Source: Branchiostoma floridae
Taxonomy: Eukaryota > Chordata > Leptocardii > Amphioxiformes > Branchiostomatidae
Direction: 5' to 3'
DNA length: 64,000 nt
Assembly (NCBI RefSeq): GCF_000003815.2
Contig: NC_049991.1
Coordinates: 12,124,955-12,188,954, forward strand
Under the pieces are notes generated by a model, which saw only the letters and a list, made by a program, of their open reading frames with translations, ran no database searches and had not been told where the DNA came from. Positions 688 to 12,042 of the stretch are shown piece by piece; the stretch's first letter is position 1; each line of letters opens with the position of its first letter. Made by a program: the position numbers and the translations under genes.

Positions 688-863
688 ATGTCGGCGGCTT
701 CTCCTCAACCTCCACCAACAGGGTTATCACCAACATCAGGCTGTCCTGGACTTTCGCAACTGCTAGGAAGGCAGCAGAAAACGGTCGGACTGAACGAATT
801 TGGAAGCCTTTTTCATCTGGGCGAGAACAACAACAAAATTCAACATGGCCGCCTGGTCCAGAG
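688..863 (+). CDS. MCL1-like: MCL1-like exon 1 (N-terminus)
   Basis: Encodes 58 residues rich in Pro, Ser and Gly, plus two bases of a serine codon completed in exon 2. The donor is AG|gtaagg at 863/864. There is no recognisable domain here, so both start choice and frame rest on the fit to the exon 2 acceptor. Confidence 0.6.
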
Positions 864-3097
864 GTAAGGAAATCAGTTGTCTCGGGACTTTAAATCTAAG
901 TTTGGGAAGTGTAGGGATGTACACAAGTCGCCAGGCTAGTTTTACAGTTCAAATTCGAAGTTTATCTTATGTATCCGACATAGCTCTGGACATATGTACC
1001 TGCACGTATATTACGTTTTTTTGGACACGTACGCCAAAATGTTATGCATAACGTTTTTTGTGAACCTTCGTTCAAAGCATATCTTGCTGTTTGGCTGAAT
1101 TTAAAACTTCCATGTTGGAAGGAGAACTCGTAAAAGTATATCTAGAGTAGGATACTAGTATATCTGTAAAGAATTGGAACCATTTCTTCTAAAAAGTATT
1201 AAAAATGAGAACAAAAGTCCTGTCACTCAATTTATGGAACATAAACTTTTAAAAAATCCAGTTGTTTCTGTTCCTCATTTTCGCATGCAACAGACACATA
1301 AAGCTGTTGTCAAACACACATTGTGATATTGAACTTTGTCGTGATCATAGATTTAGAGAACACTCAGATCACATTATGGCTACTACAAGGTTTGGCCAGA
1401 TATGAAAATATGAAGCCTTTAGTTTGAAATTAAATGAAATGTGTCAGCATCATAAATTTGTTTCCCTGTCAAGTTTCGAAAAACAATATAGTAATGCTTT
1501 ATACATTTTCTTCTGATTTGTTGTATTAGGAGATTGAATAGTTTTTTCTGTAAATTGACCATGTACTGCCCAAGTTTGACCCCCACTAACCAAGAATCTT
1601 TCTGTTCCAGTCATCCTGATGCAGAGAACCCCATTGCAGCAGAAGCTGAGGAACTAGCCAGGTTCTACATCCAAACAAAAATCAGTAACAGGAAACCCAG
1701 CCCACCCAGCAAGACAGCGGCAACTCTACAGAGAACAGCAGACGAACTCCTGGAACGGCACCAGTATTTCTTCAACGGCATGGTCAACAGGTTACAGATC
1801 TCACCTGAAACAAGCTACACAACCTTCAAGAATGTAGCAGATGAAATGTTAAAGGACCAAACAGTCAACTGGGGCCGTGTCGTCGCCCTGTATGCCTTTG
1901 CCGGAAGAATAGCCGTCCACTGTAGAGAGCAAAACCCAGAGGTGGCTGAAACAGTCGGGGAATTTCTGGGAAAATATGTTGGAAGCAACCTTGAAGGTTG
2001 GATCAAAGAAAATGGAGGATGGGTGGGTATTCATGCTTTTGTCCAAGGAGATCAGCTTGTCTTTGTTTGTCTTGACTGTTGTTTGTACATCTTTGTACTT
2101 TTTCTTCCATACACTTCTCAGAACTCTTGAAAGATATACATGTACAAACTACCACAGCAAGACAGAAAAAGACAAGCAGATTATATTCATACTGCATACA
2201 GTCAGTCTCCGTAGTGTACTACTATACGTAGATCACGTGAATGGTAATTAGATACCTTGAGAAAAACACTCATATTTCTGAACAGAGGAAGTAGCCCATT
2301 TCCTCATTTGTATTTACTTATTGTGTAAAAAATCCACTTGAAAACTTGAAAGACTCACCCACCTTAAACTAACAACCTGATCCTCTTGTTGGTGCCCCTA
2401 ATATGGTCAGGTTCCCAAATCAGCCAAGGTGAAAAAGGATGTTTATGTCTAACAGAACTTTTCTTTTTGGAAAGTGGGAGTTTTCTTTGGTGCTGCTCCC
2501 TATTTTTTTCTGCAGTAAAGTCAAAATGAAAGGTCAGTTGACAGTTCGCAGTTTGAGAGTTGATGAATATTGCTGTCGCAAAGGAGGTAAAACCCAAAGA
2601 AGGTAAAGTAAGAAATTATACCAACTGTTTCCATTTTATTCTGTTTGGCTGGATGAGATGAAAAATTTTACTTAACACCAAAATAACTTTTAATTATTGG
2701 AATATGCGTCAAAGATTAGTTACTAAGAAATCCTGGGATGTTGACTTGCTGACTACCATACTGTATAACAGTTGAAGGGAAGTCATCCCATAGGTCAATG
2801 ACCTAAAAGTCAACATTTCCAGGTAAAAGATGACACATGTCCTGAGTTAGGGTCACTGATCCTGGGCAAGTCTGGGCTTGGTGATCCCATACTGCTCAGT
2901 CAGCCCTAATTACCTGCCATAGAATTCTTTACGATGTTTTGTACATTCTTTACATGTTGCCTTGCCTTTTTCTGCAGGAAACCTTGAACAATGTGTTCCG
3001 GAAGGATCAACCCGTGGAAGTCACCCTTCGGAACGGACTTATCTTCACTGCAGCTGCGCTGGGCGCTGCCGCAACTGTTCTCAAGCTCATCTCCTGA
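688..3097 (+). CDS. MCL1-like: BCL-2 family apoptosis regulator, MCL1-like (3 exons)
   Basis: Coding exons are 688-863, 1611-2022 and 2978-3097, giving 235 residues. BCL-2 family proteins control mitochondrial outer-membrane permeabilisation. Visible motifs: a BH3 segment around residues 97-107 (LQRTADEL), BH1 with NWGR at 145-148, BH2 ending in GGW at 194-196, and a hydrophobic C-terminal tail at about 216-234 typical of a mitochondrial or ER anchor. The intron falls straight after the BH2 tryptophan, where many BCL-2 family genes are split. The BH3-to-BH1 segment resembles MCL1 more than BCL2 or BOK, but orthology is inferred. Exon 1 is joined in the frame that gives phase 2, which leaves two in-frame starts: ATG 688 (chosen, A at -3) and ATG 538 (adds 50 residues). 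The N-terminus lacks a long PEST-type region. Confidence 0.87.
864..1610 (+). other. MCL1-like intron 1
   Basis: AT-rich intronic sequence with a pyrimidine-rich 3' end. I see no other gene or clear repeat in it. Confidence 0.7.
1611..2022 (+). CDS. MCL1-like: MCL1-like exon 2 (BH3, BH1, first half of BH2)
   Basis: Acceptor ttctgttccag| at 1610/1611 and donor TGG|gtgggt at 2022/2023, phase 0. It carries most of the BCL-2 fold: helix with AEELARFYIQTK, the BH3 helix, NWGR of BH1 and the BH2 core ending in GGW. Confidence 0.9.
2023..2977 (+). other. MCL1-like intron 2
   Basis: Intronic sequence of 955 bases. Short open frames on both strands show no recognisable domain and no consistent coding signal. 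Confidence 0.7.
2978..3097 (+). CDS. MCL1-like: MCL1-like exon 3 (end of BH2, membrane anchor)
   Basis: Acceptor tttttctgcag| at 2977/2978; stop TGA at 3095-3097. The exon encodes 39 residues, beginning ETLNNVF, with an Ala/Leu/Val-rich hydrophobic stretch close to the C-terminus flanked by Arg and Lys. This is the tail-anchor arrangement of BCL-2 proteins. Confidence 0.88.
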   Translation, partial: ETLNNVFRKDQPVEVTLRNGLIFTAAALGAAATVLKLIS

Positions 3098-5520
3098 ACC
3101 AGTGATCATGCATTATCTGTTCCAAGTTGCTTTACACAGCATACAAAGACTTTCACTGTCAAATGGATCACTATACTGACTGTAATCCAAGTGTCTGCTA
3201 GAATTGGTTTTCTCACTAGAGATAGGCAGGAAGATTTTGCTGTTGAACCGTTTGGCATGTCCTAGGGAAGTATATCTACAGAATGAAGTATTTTCACCCG
3301 TTGGGCAGGGATTCTGTGGCAGCTATAGTGCAAAATTAGAGGAACTTGATTGATTGTGGAAGGAACCTGTGTGGATATTTCATTCCATGTGGCTTCCATA
3401 GGCATGCTGTGTGATTCAACGGCAAAGAAGTGTCCGTGCTTGTCTCTGGTGATGAAATCTCAAGCATTAAGTAGTGAATCATAAGTCACATAGAAGTTAG
3501 TCAGACAGGCTTTACTACACATATTGTAATTACCTGCTGTATCCAGATTTGTAGAGTTAAGTTTGGGAAATTGTAAAGAAGCTACCCCATGTCTGATGAT
3601 CTTGAATCATGCCAGGAAAAGTGCTATCTACAGTGCCATCTTGCATGCAGAGAGATGTTTCTGAAAAACAAGCTCAGAAAAGTCCTTCTTACAAAAGCAA
3701 TATACCACAGATCATGATCTCTTTTGCAGACATGAGGTGGCATCTCTTATACTGTACCATTATTACAACACATAAGTTGAACATAGCACAAAGTGCCTTT
3801 TGTTTATATGTTAACAGATGTATCTATCATTGCTTATTAATTTCTGTGCATAATTTGTATATGGTGTATATTCCACCAGGTCCATCCTGTAGATATGATG
3901 CATTTGAGTGGTCATGTTGCATGTGGACGATGATATCAAGGTTATTTCTACTCAGATGAAAACAGAAGCTTGTGTTTGCACATGTATCTTACAGTCGAAG
4001 CCTAGATGTGTAACAAGAGGCCAATGCTGTACAGCTGCAGGAGTATTTAGCAAATTTAACCAAGCAGCTTTCCATTGATTCATTACAGTCCTAAGATTGG
4101 AAGTCAGAAACTCAGAAGATACTGTATTTTGAGGATCAAAGAAAGACAAGTCCAAAGAAAGACAAGTCCTTGAAGAAAAGTCTACTTTGTAATGACGTCT
4201 TTTGTACTCGTATGATATGCTGTGAATTTGTAAATTGTACTTATATGGTATCAGTGAACTTGCAAGTAAGGGAGAACTGCCATTGGTGCTGGAAACTGCC
4301 TTATATAGTTATTTCAAAATGTGGTTATTAACCTCCATCATCGGTCTACAAAATACCTTCTGTGCTAAGATGAAGCAGTCATATCCGATCTTGCCAAAAC
4401 GTGCACAGTCCAAGTTCCAGTACAGCGCACACTGGTCTGTACAGGTGAATGCAGTGTAAGACTGTAACTCTGTGGTAAAGACTTGAGAACAGTTTGAACT
4501 CGTTTGTACAGGTGTTGACTTGTGTACTGTCCTGTTACAGTGGCTGAGTGTGTGTGCTTATATCTGAAGGCCAACCAAGGGGATAGGTGCAGATGAAGGT
4601 AAAGGGAATGGTCCAGGCCTGTGCAGATCTTCTGAGTTTCCTGTGTGTGTTCTCTGAGAGAGTGCAAGCAGGAGACCGCACTGAGGATCTGAGCTTTGCC
4701 TGGAAACTGTAAGTCGGTAGATGAAGGTAACCAGAAAGGAACAGAGTAGTACACATTGTAATCAGGAAACCTGTAAGGGGTGGGTGTCACTTGTGTATGG
4801 CCTAATTATCACATACTATATATTCCACTTTTTCTCAAGACAAGCTTTCAGTGGAATTTTTTCTTATCATGATGACTCATTCTATTGACAATCTCAATAC
4901 AATTGATTTGTTTACTTTCAGGAGTAGCGTGGGTGACTCACCAGTCTGGGACAAAAAGAAATGATGCAAATTGTTAGTCCTACTGGTAACCACCAGACTC
5001 AGGCTCCCCCAGGCAGCAGGATCATTACATTGCACAATTGTGTGCTACTTTTAGAGCTTTATCCATTTCGCTAATGGCTAAATTTGTTTTGAACATCATT
5101 TCAAAATTCTTTTGACAGAAGTATGGCAGCTTGGTTCACAAAAACTGTTCAGTATTACAGAAGACATACTTCATATTATAAGGAACACAAGGTAGAATAG
5201 TGTCAGTAAGCCACACATTTCACTGAATTGTTCTACACAGAAGGTATATTTGTAAATCAGGCCTGTGATGAGGTGGAATATCATGGGATAGCAAACTGCA
5301 AATACCAGTAGGAAATATTAGACAGACTGGCAACATACTGCACAGAAATGTTGCACACAGGAGTGTGTCAATTAATGAAGATGACTTCACAAGCCCAAAA
5401 GGGTATTTGTTTATGGAAAAATGCTCGATGTTGCCAGTGAAGCCATCTTCATTTGTGTTACGGCCTTTGAAGAAGACTATTAGTTTAAATTTAACCTCCT
5501 CCTTGGTGACTTCTACTGTA

Positions 5521-5616
5521 ACCAATACAACTTTTGGTATGTAGATGGTCACTAACCAGGGAGGCGGTTAATTTTTCTCAGGTTTGGTTCTTTTGTTATA
5601 GAAGATGACGTGCACA
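5521..5616 (+). repeat. 96-base direct repeat, copy 1
   Basis: Matches 6045-6140 in the same orientation at about 89 of 96 positions by eye. Both copies start ACCAATACAACTTTTG and end GATGTGCACA or GATGACGTGCACA. It lies in the putative 3' UTR of the MCL1-like gene. Confidence 0.85.
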
Positions 5617-5645
5617 TTTTGTTTTGCTTTTTAAAGATATGTTGA

Positions 5646-5670: not shown

Positions 5671-6880
5671 CTGATTGTGACACGTGTTGTTGTGGTCATT
5701 TTGTTGTAGTATAAGATTACTTTTCGAACCACAAAGATTATGTTAAGTTGAATTAGCAGGAGGAATAATTCAAATAAAATGAAGTAATACACAGTAATAG
5801 ACCAGCAATACCTCTCACACACATAAACACACATTTCTGCAATGAATACTTTTAAAAAAAAGCAAGTGCTGCAAAACATCAATACTAGTATCTTAACTTC
5901 AATATACAAATCTTGCCTGACAAATGATGAAAATGTTCGTTACACCAAATGTTTTGATTTACACTTAATTTATTTGTTTGTTTGGCTAATTTACACACAC
6001 AGCCAGGGCTGCTCAACTAGCCTGTGGCTATTACTAATACTTTAACCAATACAACTTTTGATACATAGATGGTCACTTACCAGGGAGGAGGTTAATTTTT
6101 CTCAGGTTTGGTTCTTTTGTTACAGAAGATGATGTGCACAAATGGCTAGCCCAGATGACCAAAACAGAATACAAATGGAATCTGACAAGGACAGGATACT
6201 TTTCAATAACAATATTCTAAGTTCATGAAAAAAGAACTTTTGTATAAACATTATGTAAGATAGTGTACATAGTATCTACAATGGAATCTACACCAATATT
6301 TATCAACAATATTGACAGCGAGAGGTCACTACTCATGCAAGGTCTTTGAACCCTAATTTTAATTTCTTCTACCCATTCTTTGTTTTGCAATGAAATCTCT
6401 TCTAACCCTTTTTGTAATTAAATGATGAAACTTCTTTTACAAAATCTACAGGAGGAATTTGTGTGGGTGCAGGTAATGAGTGGGTGGTGTGGGCAAACTT
6501 CCTTATATGGAACAATAACCGTCAAACTAACAGGTGACTCCAGACAGATTATATTTCTAAACATCAGTAAACATCAGAGTAAAATGTTTTTTGAGTGCTT
6601 GATGTTGCCGACATTCCCATATTTTCTATATCAACATATAATTAAACGATCTGCTAACGAAATGAAGCCGACCAAGGCTTATACACAAACAAACAAACTT
6701 TGCAACTACTCAATAGTCTCACTGTCAGTCTCTGCAGTTACCAACCAGCATACACGTACACACATGTCTCACCATACCATAGTAACCGAACAAGTTTGCG
6801 CTCTTTGGTTCGGGTACGAAGGTGGAATGTTGTCCCAGGTAACCAACAATAGTGCACCAGACATGTCCGTACGTGTGAAG
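5671..6880. other. Intergenic sequence
   Basis: Apart from repeat copy 2 at 6045-6140 I see nothing recognisable. The 176-residue open frame at 6422-6952 has no domain, no coding-like composition and runs into the next promoter-like region. Confidence 0.6.
6045..6140 (+). repeat. 96-base direct repeat, copy 2
   Basis: Second copy of the 5521-5616 repeat, 524 bases downstream and beyond the predicted polyadenylation site. No coding frame or terminal inverted repeat is apparent. It could be a local segmental duplication or two copies of a short dispersed element. Confidence 0.85.
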
Positions 6881-6889
6881 GTGCGCCAT

Positions 6890-7202
6890 CTGACATGCGC
6901 ACCTGTACCCACCTGTCGTGACGTCACAAGTCCGGAAGTGGTGGGCAGGTGAGGTAGGCGGGGGACGGCCCAACACGGTTCCTTTTCTGGGAAAGTATTG
7001 CATCAGAAGGAAAACGGCCAGCAAAAAAGGAACGGCGAATGACAGGACCCAACCCCTCGCACCTTGCCATACGTCATTGGCGCCAAGTAAAGCTGGTGTG
7101 AGCTTGGGGCTTCCCTGACACTGCTACGGGAACTCTTCAGAGGGAGGACACGTACCTGATTTGCCGCGGGATTGATTGAGGCTATATCAGTTAGATTTTG
7201 AG
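6890..7202 (+). promoter_or_regulatory. Putative promoter and noncoding first exon of the BH3-like gene
   Basis: A palindromic CRE, TGACGTCA, is at 6919-6926, followed by an ETS-type CCGGAAGT at about 6931, in sequence more GC-rich than its surroundings. A donor-like GAG|gtaggt at 7202/7203 and an acceptor-like accaccag| at 7838/7839 would remove a 636-base intron and join a 5' UTR exon to the exon with the ATG at 7860. The exon model is inferred. Confidence 0.4.
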
Positions 7203-7859
7203 GTAGGTGTACAGAAATTCAGTTGGCAGAGGTATCGGTGGTTTAGATGTCATTGTCAAGAGAAGGTATATCTCTGATATCATGATCAATGTATTGGTTG
7301 AACGTTTATTTTTGTAAGATAACGTTAAAGGCGAAAGTGAAAATGAGCCAACCGCACGCGTGTGTCACATGTAGTAACCTTATACGCTATCATATAAAAG
7401 CTGATCATGACTATACATATTCGTTGCCTTTTTTTTCTTTTATATGATGCCTCATCGTATACAGGTTAGGTACGGTTTTAGCTCTTTTACGGGTAGGCGT
7501 GGTCACAGACTCGGTCGACAAGCTCGCATGTAACCGTATGATGCCGGTTCTCATGGAATGAATAACTAATGTGAGCCGTTGTGGCACTTTTATACTTCAA
7601 TTTGAACGTTCGTACATGCGATAGACCAGAGCAAAAAGTACCAATAGTTGCATTGTCAAATACAGAACGTCTATTTATTTCTCGGAACCTCCATCAGTTC
7701 ATGACAGGAAGTTACGATTTTTCAAATGGGAGCGTCTGTTTGTCCACACTGTACTTGAATATCGTTATACATTAATGTAATGTATACAAAGTATGGTTTT
7801 CTCATGGAGATTAATGCCCCGTATCCATTTACCACCAGGTTGTACAAGGTTGTAAGGCC

Positions 7860-8213
7860 ATGGGTTTCAACCAAACATCCAGCAAGTGGGAAACTCAGCG
7901 GAAGAATATCACAGGGACCGAAGAAAAGAGTGATGGGGCCAGCAATACCAGTAACACCGGCACAGCACCGACAATAAGGCAAGAATTCATTCAGGTCAAC
8001 ACGGTACAGATTCGTGCCCTGGACATTTCGATGGGGCGGGCTGGATTGAAACCTTCTGTGGAAGTAGAAAAACATTGTGGTATCATTCTCAGGAACTTGG
8101 GAGACGATCTTTTTAACAGGTCACTGAGTGCCCTTAACCTTGAGGGACTTGCGCCACCTAGTGACAACGACAGAAAACACAGAGGAAGACCCCGGTCTGC
8201 ACACCAACTATGA
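7860..8213 (+). CDS. Candidate BH3-only protein, 117 residues
   Basis: BH3-only proteins bind BCL-2-type guardians or BAX/BAK through one amphipathic helix. Residues 73-87 contain ILRNLGDDLFNR, matching the BH3 pattern: hydrophobics at L77, L80 and L84 around the invariant G81-D82. Outside it the protein is polar and Ser/Thr/Asn-rich, as expected for a disordered BH3-only protein. There is no BH1, BH2 or membrane anchor. The start has an excellent context (ggccATGg). An AATAAA at 8526-8531 would end the transcript. It lies about 4.8 kb downstream of the MCL1-like gene on the same strand. Cautions: an AACAG|gtcact site right after the motif could be a splice donor, and a similar-length open frame overlaps on the minus strand, so the coding status needs transcript support. 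Confidence 0.5.
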   Translation: MGFNQTSSKWETQRKNITGTEEKSDGASNTSNTGTAPTIRQEFIQVNTVQIRALDISMGRAGLKPSVEVEKHCGIILRNLGDDLFNRSLSALNLEGLAPPSDNDRKHRGRPRSAHQL

Positions 8214-8525: not shown

Positions 8526-8531
8526 AATAAA
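8526..8531 (+). promoter_or_regulatory. Polyadenylation signal AATAAA, BH3-like gene
   Basis: First AATAAA downstream of the stop at 8213, giving a 3' UTR of about 330 bases. Confidence 0.4.
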
Positions 8532-9386: not shown

Positions 9387-9563
9387 ATGAATTTACGGTC
9401 AGGAAAAAGTGTAGACAGTGTTCTGGACAGGGAGCAGACTAAGAGAAAAGCAAACAGACCTCGTCCAACACCTGCCGAGAGCCAATGTGAGGAACAACAG
9501 CTTTTGCTACAAGTCGTTGTGGCGGTGGCTCTCATTTTCATCGGACTGGTACTGTACGTTGAG
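9387..9563 (+). CDS. Membrane-protein gene exon 1 (basic N-terminus and membrane helix)
   Basis: Encodes 59 residues ending LVLYVE. The open frame would run on to 9608 into the flank of the transposon, but the donor at 9563/9564 keeps the frame with exon 2. Confidence 0.6.
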
Positions 9564-10671
9564 GTTTGTGTTGTCATGATGTGGAGTAACTTTCATTGTT
9601 GTGGATAGGGCTGGGTATCGGTACAGCGTACCGGTACAAAACCGGTTTTTCTTATTGGACCGGTCCAGAAAAACCGGACCTGAAAAAATTAGGTGGACCG
9701 GATGTTGGACCGATTAGAAAATTAACATATTTTTTTATCAGTCATTCACACGTTTTGGCGCCTGCAGGTGGAAGAAAATAACTAGAGTGAAGTAGAGTAG
9801 AGTTTATAGTAGTTTCTACCAAGTTTTACAGCCATTCGTACAGGTGCAGTTAACGTTGTAGGATTTTAAAACGCCAGTGTAGGTCTAATACTCCACCAAA
9901 CAGATTTCTTTGTAGTGAAATGGACCATTGATATGAGTCATACTGAATCAGGTCCAGGTTCAGGTCCGGACCTGGACCTGATCCTCTGGACCTGAACCGG
10001 ACCTGGACCTGAATTTTCTGTACCGGTACCCACCCCTAGTTGTGGATAAGATCATTTTGCAGCTATTGTGGCTTCATGTGTCGGGAAACGTGAGTATTCA
10101 GATTCTGTTTTTTGCCTAAAGCTCGGATTAAATGATAGGCTAGCCACTCAGTACCACGGACAGGGTTTGTTATGGTCAACAGTTTTGACATGATGGTAAG
10201 CATCACAGAAGAAGTTTGTTCTCCGAAAATCATGAGTAGAGTGAGTCACATACATTCTATATTCCCATTCTGTTACAGTGGAACAACCTGTGGTTTGGTC
10301 GTACTACCGCCCAAAATTTGGCTTTGATGGCGCCAGTCCCATCGGACAAGGCGAAGACAGGTTACACCCTGCCGTCCAGCGGCAGTACTGCAGAGGACTA
10401 TGCCCGAATCATGGAGGCGCTGATTGAGCACCATCCCCAGAGTGTCCGACCGTTTGTGGAGGCTATGGGAAAAGATCTACTCAAGGAGGTCGCCACTGAA
10501 CTTATCCGGAAGGACGCCAGTCTTCTAGAGCTTCTGTCCGAGGCTATGAATCTTCCTCCTGACGCGGAGGGGCAGTGTTCCTTCAGAGTTACCGGATCAG
10601 TCCCTGGAGAGATAGAGGTCTGGTGTGTAGAGGGTCCAAGTATTGGAACTGTAAATCATCAGGAACTATAG
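9387..10671 (+). CDS. Small single-pass membrane protein, possibly COA1/TIM21-like (2 exons)
   Basis: Exons 9387-9563 and 10279-10671 join in phase 0 to give 189 residues. The N-terminus is basic (about 1-35), followed by one hydrophobic helix at about 36-57 (LLLQVVVAVALIFIGLVLYV), then a soluble domain with a helix ending in HHP and a later strand pair (FRVTGSVPGEIEVW). A membrane helix, a helix ending in an HP motif and a V.GS..G.I.V strand pair is the arrangement of COA1 and TIM21 mitochondrial inner-membrane proteins, so a role in respiratory-complex assembly is conceivable. The similarity is faint and I would not transfer the name. The donor GAG|gtttgt is weak. The intron holds a hAT-type miniature element. 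AATAAA signals follow at 11260 and 11293. Confidence 0.6.
9606..10038. mobile_element. hAT-type miniature inverted-repeat element (MITE), 433 bp
   Basis: The ends are inverted repeats: TAGGGCTGGGTATCGGTACA at the left, and the complement of TAGGGGTGGGTACCGGTACA at the right. Identical 8-base target duplications, GTTGTGGA, flank it at 9598-9605 and 10039-10046. Terminal TAGGG and an 8-base duplication are hallmarks of hAT elements. The interior has CCGG-rich and GGTCCAGGT/ACCTGGACC subrepeats and no transposase, so it would depend on an enzyme encoded elsewhere. Confidence 0.88.
10279..10671 (+). CDS. Membrane-protein gene exon 2 (soluble domain)
   Basis: Acceptor ttctgttacag| at 10278/10279 is strong. 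The exon encodes 130 residues starting WNNLWFGRTT and ending at a TAG at 10669-10671. Its codon use and GC content look coding, unlike the flanks. Confidence 0.7.
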   Translation, partial: WNNLWFGRTTAQNLALMAPVPSDKAKTGYTLPSSGSTAEDYARIMEALIEHHPQSVRPFVEAMGKDLLKEVATELIRKDASLLELLSEAMNLPPDAEGQCSFRVTGSVPGEIEVWCVEGPSIGTVNHQEL

Positions 10672-11616: not shown

Positions 11617-12042
11617 ATGAGGTTGTCGTGCCGGAGGCTGGCCCTCGGGCTGAGCGCGGGCGCATTTCTGTGTTTGTGGCTGTTCCTGACGGGGTTTCAG
11701 CAGGACCTGGCGGCGGGGAGGATCGCAACTCAAGGGGACGGGTCTTCCGGCAACGAGCGATGGGCGTTAGGGAAACATCCTCGGAAGATCTCCAGTGTCG
11801 GCAGGTCCGTGGAAGACGACGACCGAGACAGTGACATCAGAAAGACGTCCAGGACTCAGTCGAAACACAGTAGACCCGGGAACAGAAGCCCTTCGTCAGG
11901 GCAGAACACAGTGTCCGTACCTGACCGCATGAGGAAGACCGAGCTCCATGACATTTTCATCGGTGTAAAAACAACAGAGAAGTACCACAGACACAGAATG
12001 GACCTTCTTATGGACACATGGGTGTCTCTTGCCAAGGATCAG
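11617..12042 (+). CDS. fng: Fringe exon 1 (anchor, stem, start of catalytic domain)
   Basis: Residues 1-142: signal anchor, a low-complexity stem rich in Ser, Arg and Asp, and the first catalytic segment ending in WVSLAKDQ. Donor CAG|gtatct, phase 0. Confidence 0.96.

Follow-up and report, generated by a model that had tools for sequence, protein, structure and literature searches.

The reading frame at 7860-8213 is probably a coding exon of a BH3-only gene, and together with a diverged paralogue it appears to flank a Bcl-2-family gene in the genome of the lancelet Branchiostoma floridae. The window, meaning the whole stretch of DNA that was analysed, comprises 64,000 nucleotides (C13:12124955-12188954) of a genome of 513,431,437 bases in 431 contigs. 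The frame, its motif, the paralogue, the likeness kept at the protein level and the gene order are all observed in the DNA. A first-pass annotation had proposed a BH3-only gene at this position, a reading strengthened by the paralogue, which carries this motif too and lies across the Bcl-2-family gene. Similarity searches have difficulty finding BH3-only genes, and the set present in the chordate ancestor is therefore unclear. A pair of paralogues beside a Bcl-2-family gene provides exact sequences to test as well as an internal comparison between the copies.

The candidate frame and its BH3 motif

The features at the centre of the analysis are as follows.

7860 to 8213, plus strand: candidate BH3-only coding frame, 117 aa, resting on the paralogue, the motif and the frame-pair tests
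8076 to 8111, plus strand: BH3 core CGIILRNLGDDL, candidate residues 73-84, matrix score 16.4
C13:12123924-12124307, minus strand, outside the window: paralogue, 128 aa, whose ATG lies 648 bases to the left of the window's first base

The frame of 117 residues is present as the first-pass annotation described it, with its ATG in a strong start context (AAGGCCATGG). The segment ILRNLGDDLFNR corresponds to residues 76-87, and the positions of L77, L80, G81-D82 and L84 agree with those given earlier. Following the HP scheme (PMC9171138), C73, L77, L80 and L84 of the core occupy HP1 to HP4 and D82 is the acidic residue. Because an antisense frame of equal length (7722-8075) overlaps the candidate frame, frame length alone is little evidence.

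We scored the motif with a matrix derived from validated human motifs, for which 25 of the 34 rows in PMC9171138 Table 1 were used. The omitted rows are BCLXS (letters identical to BCLXL), CLU, HERC1 and ITPR1 (two motifs), and CASP8, HEBP2, MOAP1, TPT1 and INK4C (odd length or reversed order); omission of CLU, HERC1 and ITPR1 renders the matrix more canonical. The candidate core, at 16.4, ranks second among the 25,095 12-mers from window frames of at least 60 aa, behind the neighbouring Bcl-2 gene's own BH3 (19.3) and ahead of a third-ranked 12-mer scoring 10.8. As background we used 200 kb of the same genome, consisting of 20 hand-placed 10-kb stretches from 2 of the 431 contigs and containing 10,781 N. 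The maximum among its 173,255 12-mers is 12.2, below both cores. 12-mers containing X were skipped in the window and background scans. The score of 16.4 was reached by none of the simulated 12-mers in two sets (0/443,220 and 0/1,730,107) and by none of 50,000 residue shuffles. Compared with the 25 human motifs scored leave-one-out, the candidate core lies above 18 and below 7, while the paralogue core CAETLKHVGDQL, at 21.5, surpasses 23 of them. A 26-aa frame in the left-flank piece L006 (CQVLLQALGDQF, score 13.5) is surrounded by stops and was set aside.

The earlier description of a protein lacking BH1, BH2 and a membrane anchor also stands: a Pfam search of the candidate returned no family at E up to 10, no Bcl-2 homology region is present beyond BH3, and no segment in either the candidate or the paralogue is hydrophobic enough for an anchor. 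In both proteins the strongest amphipathic segment is the BH3. By charge and hydropathy both class as disordered, the candidate narrowly. A single-sequence AF2 model of the candidate is poor (mean pLDDT 52.4, best block at residues 71-80) and places, at low confidence, helices at 67-91 (the BH3), 6-15 and 36-60, so that disorder is not clear-cut. PDB sequence searches at E up to 10, which are weak for short motifs, retrieved no BH3 chain and no NOXA chain. For the whole candidate the matches were limited to two entries of a complex I subunit (E 1.2 and 1.3), its BH3 peptide gave zero matches, and a two-row BH3 profile found just two chains, both unrelated.

The diverged paralogue and alternative readings

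A genome search with the candidate protein found the candidate itself and one other place, C13:12123927-12124235 on the minus strand, with an E value of 0.37. We took the start of the paralogue to be the ATG that gives 128 aa, after a presumed acceptor; an earlier ATG would give 145 aa. In a pairwise BLASTP comparison the two proteins match with E 9e-08 and 37 of 122 positions identical. Their alignment score of 89 was not reached by any of 2000 shuffles, for which the maximum was 54. The same holds with the BH3 core masked (0/2000) and for the segment after BH3 alone (0/2000), where a C-terminal block is common to both proteins. The N-terminal parts, before BH3, show no significant likeness (101 of 2000 shuffles reach the score). 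Directly after the motif, the candidate has F85 following HP4 and is without four residues that are present in the paralogue. Of the 387 frames of at least 60 aa in the window and left flank, the paralogue alone exceeds a score of 38, the candidate itself aside; frames with X were excluded here and from the comparison with 2530 frames below. Pfam reported nothing of the Bcl-2 kind for the paralogue and one weak unrelated match, and no third family member was found by motif or likeness in the 20 kb further left.

Among the 36 possible frame pairs, the sense pair is the best (89), followed by its antisense mirror (59), and the rest of the best six score at most 33. At the DNA level, blastn returned chance-level pieces only and no significant similarity. 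Over 47 aligned codons the two genes differ 15, 15 and 32 times at codon positions 1, 2 and 3, respectively, these codons being hand-picked ungapped blocks, a selection biased towards matches at the first two positions. Taken together, the superiority of the sense frames, the lack of DNA similarity and the excess of third-position differences indicate that the likeness has been kept at the protein level.

We weighed four other readings of the locus. That an open frame and a motif arose by chance and resemble the left frame by coincidence strikes us as very improbable, although several observations point that way. The antisense frame is equally long, the genome-wide E value is 0.37, and the reverse genome search with the paralogue found the paralogue itself and a place on contig C2 without listing the candidate. 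This place (C2:5142395, E 4.36) has a raw score of 76 with the paralogue, near the 89 of the pair; we rejected it as a family member, its GD being replaced by GQ, its sequence by eye a charged coiled coil and its score with the candidate 29. Across 2530 unrelated frames, the highest score with the candidate or the paralogue is 55. Given chance scores of 76 and 55, a score of 89 for the pair would not by itself stand out across an entire genome. Chance becomes unlikely through position, the sole genome match lying about 9 kb away: multiplying 0.37 by the fraction of 513 Mb that falls within about 9 kb on either side gives, by hand, about 1e-5. The motif nulls, the shuffles and the frame pairs likewise argue against it. 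The candidate is thus likely to be real, given that a divergent sister gene carrying this motif lies across the Bcl-2-family gene from it. Descent from the neighbouring Bcl-2 gene by truncation, with BH3 alone kept, would account for the adjacency and for a BH3 motif in both, yet we consider it the faintest of prospects: no similarity extends beyond the motif, and the alignment scores are reached by 1895 and 341 of 2000 shuffles.

Two further readings accept the family and differ in what the candidate does. It could be a decaying, silent former BH3-only gene of which the paralogue is the working copy, which would be in keeping with its lower motif score (16.4 against 21.5), the four residues missing after the motif and its weaker acceptor tract. 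A frame open over its full length and a C-terminal block that has been kept speak against decay, which we judge quite improbable. Alternatively, the protein is real but serves a role unrelated to death, its BH3-like helix engaging a Bcl-2 protein or another target, as in HUWE1 and Beclin-1. BH3 motifs with other roles are on record (PMC9171138), and by BLOSUM core score the candidate is closest to HUWE1 among the 25 human motifs. The paralogue, in contrast, is closest to BAX, BCL2L14 and NOXA, and the candidate is a short protein with no other recognised domain; we accordingly hold such a role to be unlikely. A coding exon of a BH3-only gene remains our preferred reading of the candidate frame.

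The Bcl-2-family gene and known BH3 proteins

Between the two BH3 genes lies the Bcl-2-family gene, whose parts are listed here.

688 to 863, plus strand: presumed first coding exon, from frame and donor; the start may be 538
1611 to 2022, plus strand: central exon with the Bcl-2 domain and NWGR, limits presumed
1714 to 1749, plus strand: the gene's own BH3, score 19.3
2978 to 3097, plus strand: presumed last exon, in phase, ending in GLIFTAAALGAAATVLKLIS-stop

The first-pass annotation had called this neighbour (1561-2130) MCL1-like. Membership of the Bcl-2 family is borne out by a match to PF00452 (E 7.5e-30, covering positions 1-100 of 100 of the profile), with NWGR kept in BH1. The evidence does not specifically favour MCL1, as Bcl-2-like 4 and Bcl-xL score higher by sequence: the best PDB matches are Bcl-2-like 4 (6wgz, HyBcl-2-4) with 90.5 bits and then Bcl-xL with 72.1, no MCL1 entry is among the best 60 of 212, and BLASTP against a human MCL1 piece gives 53 bits. 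Foldseek with a low-confidence model (mean pLDDT 57.9) placed MCL1 (1wsx) first and also returned Bcl-xL, Bcl-2, Bax and BOK. The three exons (688-863, 1611-2022 and 2978-3097) join in phase, and the last encodes a C-terminal hydrophobic stretch that we judged by eye to be an anchor. An intron follows GGW, which we take to be the position of the BCL2 and BCL2L1 intron. On its sequence features the neighbour is Bcl-2-like, and it is probably pro-survival. According to earlier reports, none of the B. belcheri Bcl-2 proteins clusters with Mcl-1 (PMC8998228), B. floridae has 7 multi-motif Bcl-2 genes (PMC2246300), and a B. belcheri BCL-2-related chimera, which may be another gene than the neighbour, bound neither BID nor NOXA in an assay (PMC8282340).

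The candidate resembles BIM, PUMA, BMF, HRK, BIK, BAD and BID in having four hydrophobic core positions and an aspartate without BH1 or BH2. Unlike these proteins, the candidate has no family match, and here two copies flank one Bcl-2-family gene. With NOXA (PMAIP1), also a short BH3 protein, it shares a cysteine at HP1 (C73 in the candidate, C80 in the paralogue). The NOXA core CATQLRRFGDKL is the sole one with an HP1 cysteine among the 25 human motifs used, and it has 6 of 12 residues in common with the candidate and 6 of 12 with the paralogue. However, core similarity is equal or higher to HUWE1 for the candidate and to BAX or BCL2L14 for the paralogue, and no likeness to NOXA was found outside the motif in a comparison that consisted of cores and PDB searches. 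With HUWE1 and BAX closest by score, kinship with NOXA is thus a lead only.

To our knowledge, C. elegans has a single BH3-only gene, and ced-9 is not adjacent to it. The product of that gene, EGL-1, is like the candidate a short BH3-only protein and opposes the Bcl-2 protein CED-9 (PMC8998228). According to the same report, EGL-1 used as a query found no relatives in other branches. Potential BH3-only proteins of Cephalochordata were presented there in 2022, the Figure 5 legend naming both B. belcheri and B. floridae, and our candidate and paralogue may already be among the sequences of that figure. The claim made for those Branchiostoma proteins is of the same kind as ours; gene order is absent from the text passages (PMC8998228).

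How such a protein would act can be proposed by analogy with known BH3-only proteins. The short protein would probably lack fixed structure over most of its length until a partner engages its amphipathic BH3 helix (about residues 67-91). Once the gene is switched on, this helix would bind in the groove of a Bcl-2 protein that promotes survival, inserting C73, L77, L80 and L84 into the four pockets and pairing D82 with the BH1 arginine, which in the neighbour would be that of NWGR. With the groove occupied, killers of the BAX/BAK type would be freed. We infer transcription, splicing, binding, killing and the identity of the Bcl-2 partner. The neighbour, within 5 kb, is the natural first candidate for that partner, adjacency being no evidence of binding.

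Transcript structure, promoters and gene order

Features relevant to transcription are given below.

354 to 687, no strand: presumed shared promoter of the Bcl-2-family gene and the paralogue, donor at 354, CpG-rich
7202 to 7203, plus strand: presumed 5' donor of the candidate, from the first-pass annotation, consensus score 5.2
7838 to 7839, plus strand: presumed splice acceptor of the candidate, ACCACCAG/GTTG, 21 bases before the ATG, weak pyrimidine tract
8526 to 8531, plus strand: presumed polyadenylation signal AATAAA, about 310 bases past the stop

The intron 7202/7839 proposed earlier is possible from the sequence, although by consensus score an alternative donor at 6948 is the stronger (7.1 versus 5.2). 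In each BH3 gene a putative acceptor precedes the ATG by 18 or 21 bases, and the coding sequence occupies a single exon, all splice sites being predicted ones. Among donors for the paralogue, CAG/GTGAGT at window position 354 on the minus strand scores highest (8.1). CpG observed/expected is 1.26 over 330-690 compared with 0.55 for the window. With the donor at 354 and the start codon of the Bcl-2-family gene at 688 or 538, the CpG-rich region of a few hundred bases in between may serve as promoter for both that gene and the paralogue. No word of 10 to 12 bases is common to the two presumed promoters. A CRE at 6919 was dismissed as ordinary (3 in the window, 17 in the 200-kb background). Upstream of the candidate, an E2F-type palindrome (TTGGCGCCAA, 7077-7086) is a single site that occurs once in the window and 0 times in the 200 kb. 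Three p53 half-sites, a raw count, were also seen.

The order along the DNA is an MRTF-like gene, the paralogue (minus), the Bcl-2-family gene (plus), the candidate (plus), frames at 9387-9608 and 10327-10671, and a Fringe-like frame. The Bcl-2-family gene is head-to-head with the paralogue and shares its strand with the candidate, which lies downstream of it. This order invites a broader reading, in which an old linked locus joins killer and guardian: two BH3-only genes with a NOXA-like cysteine core would have remained beside a single Bcl-2 survival gene, one to either side, even as their identity fell to about 30%. One of the two would share a divergent promoter with the survival gene, and the death trigger and its safeguard would thereby be passed on and controlled as a unit. 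We regard this as doubtful, though possible; if true, it would offer an outgroup within the chordates from which to trace how the NOXA-type death signal arose. BH3-only genes are known as a kind, and the arrangement is one we have not seen described: among the matches listed for the lancelet and invertebrate BH3 literature and the bidirectional-promoter literature, no title or abstract opening describes linked BH3-only and Bcl-2 genes. The locus suggests a search strategy, namely to run a BH3 matrix over the flanks of Bcl-2 genes and to demand a second copy.

Several observations concern the surroundings. Exons in the left flank (L003 298-2940 and L006 8010-8832) presumably belong to a myocardin-related transcription factor gene (glutamine-rich, with KKLKYHQYIPP), for two frames of which Pfam gave nothing of use, while the Fringe-like frame at 11617 has a Pfam E value of 8.6e-12. 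Human 22q13 contains MRTFA, MFNG and the BH3-only gene BIK. The MRTF-like and Fringe-like genes around the locus may echo this region. The frames at 9387-9608 and 10327-10671, perhaps one gene, contain a hydrophobic stretch (LLLQVVVAVALIFIGLVLYVE) and have no convincing Pfam match. Near-identical stretches at 5520-5620 and 6040-6140 (accaatacaacttttgg...tgatgtgcac type), noticed by eye upstream of the candidate, are perhaps a mobile or duplicated piece. In the left flank, repeat units at about 4500-5800 of L006 are open in several frames (e.g. HRPTVPLSNSKYNIQ) and have the appearance of a diverged tandem array.
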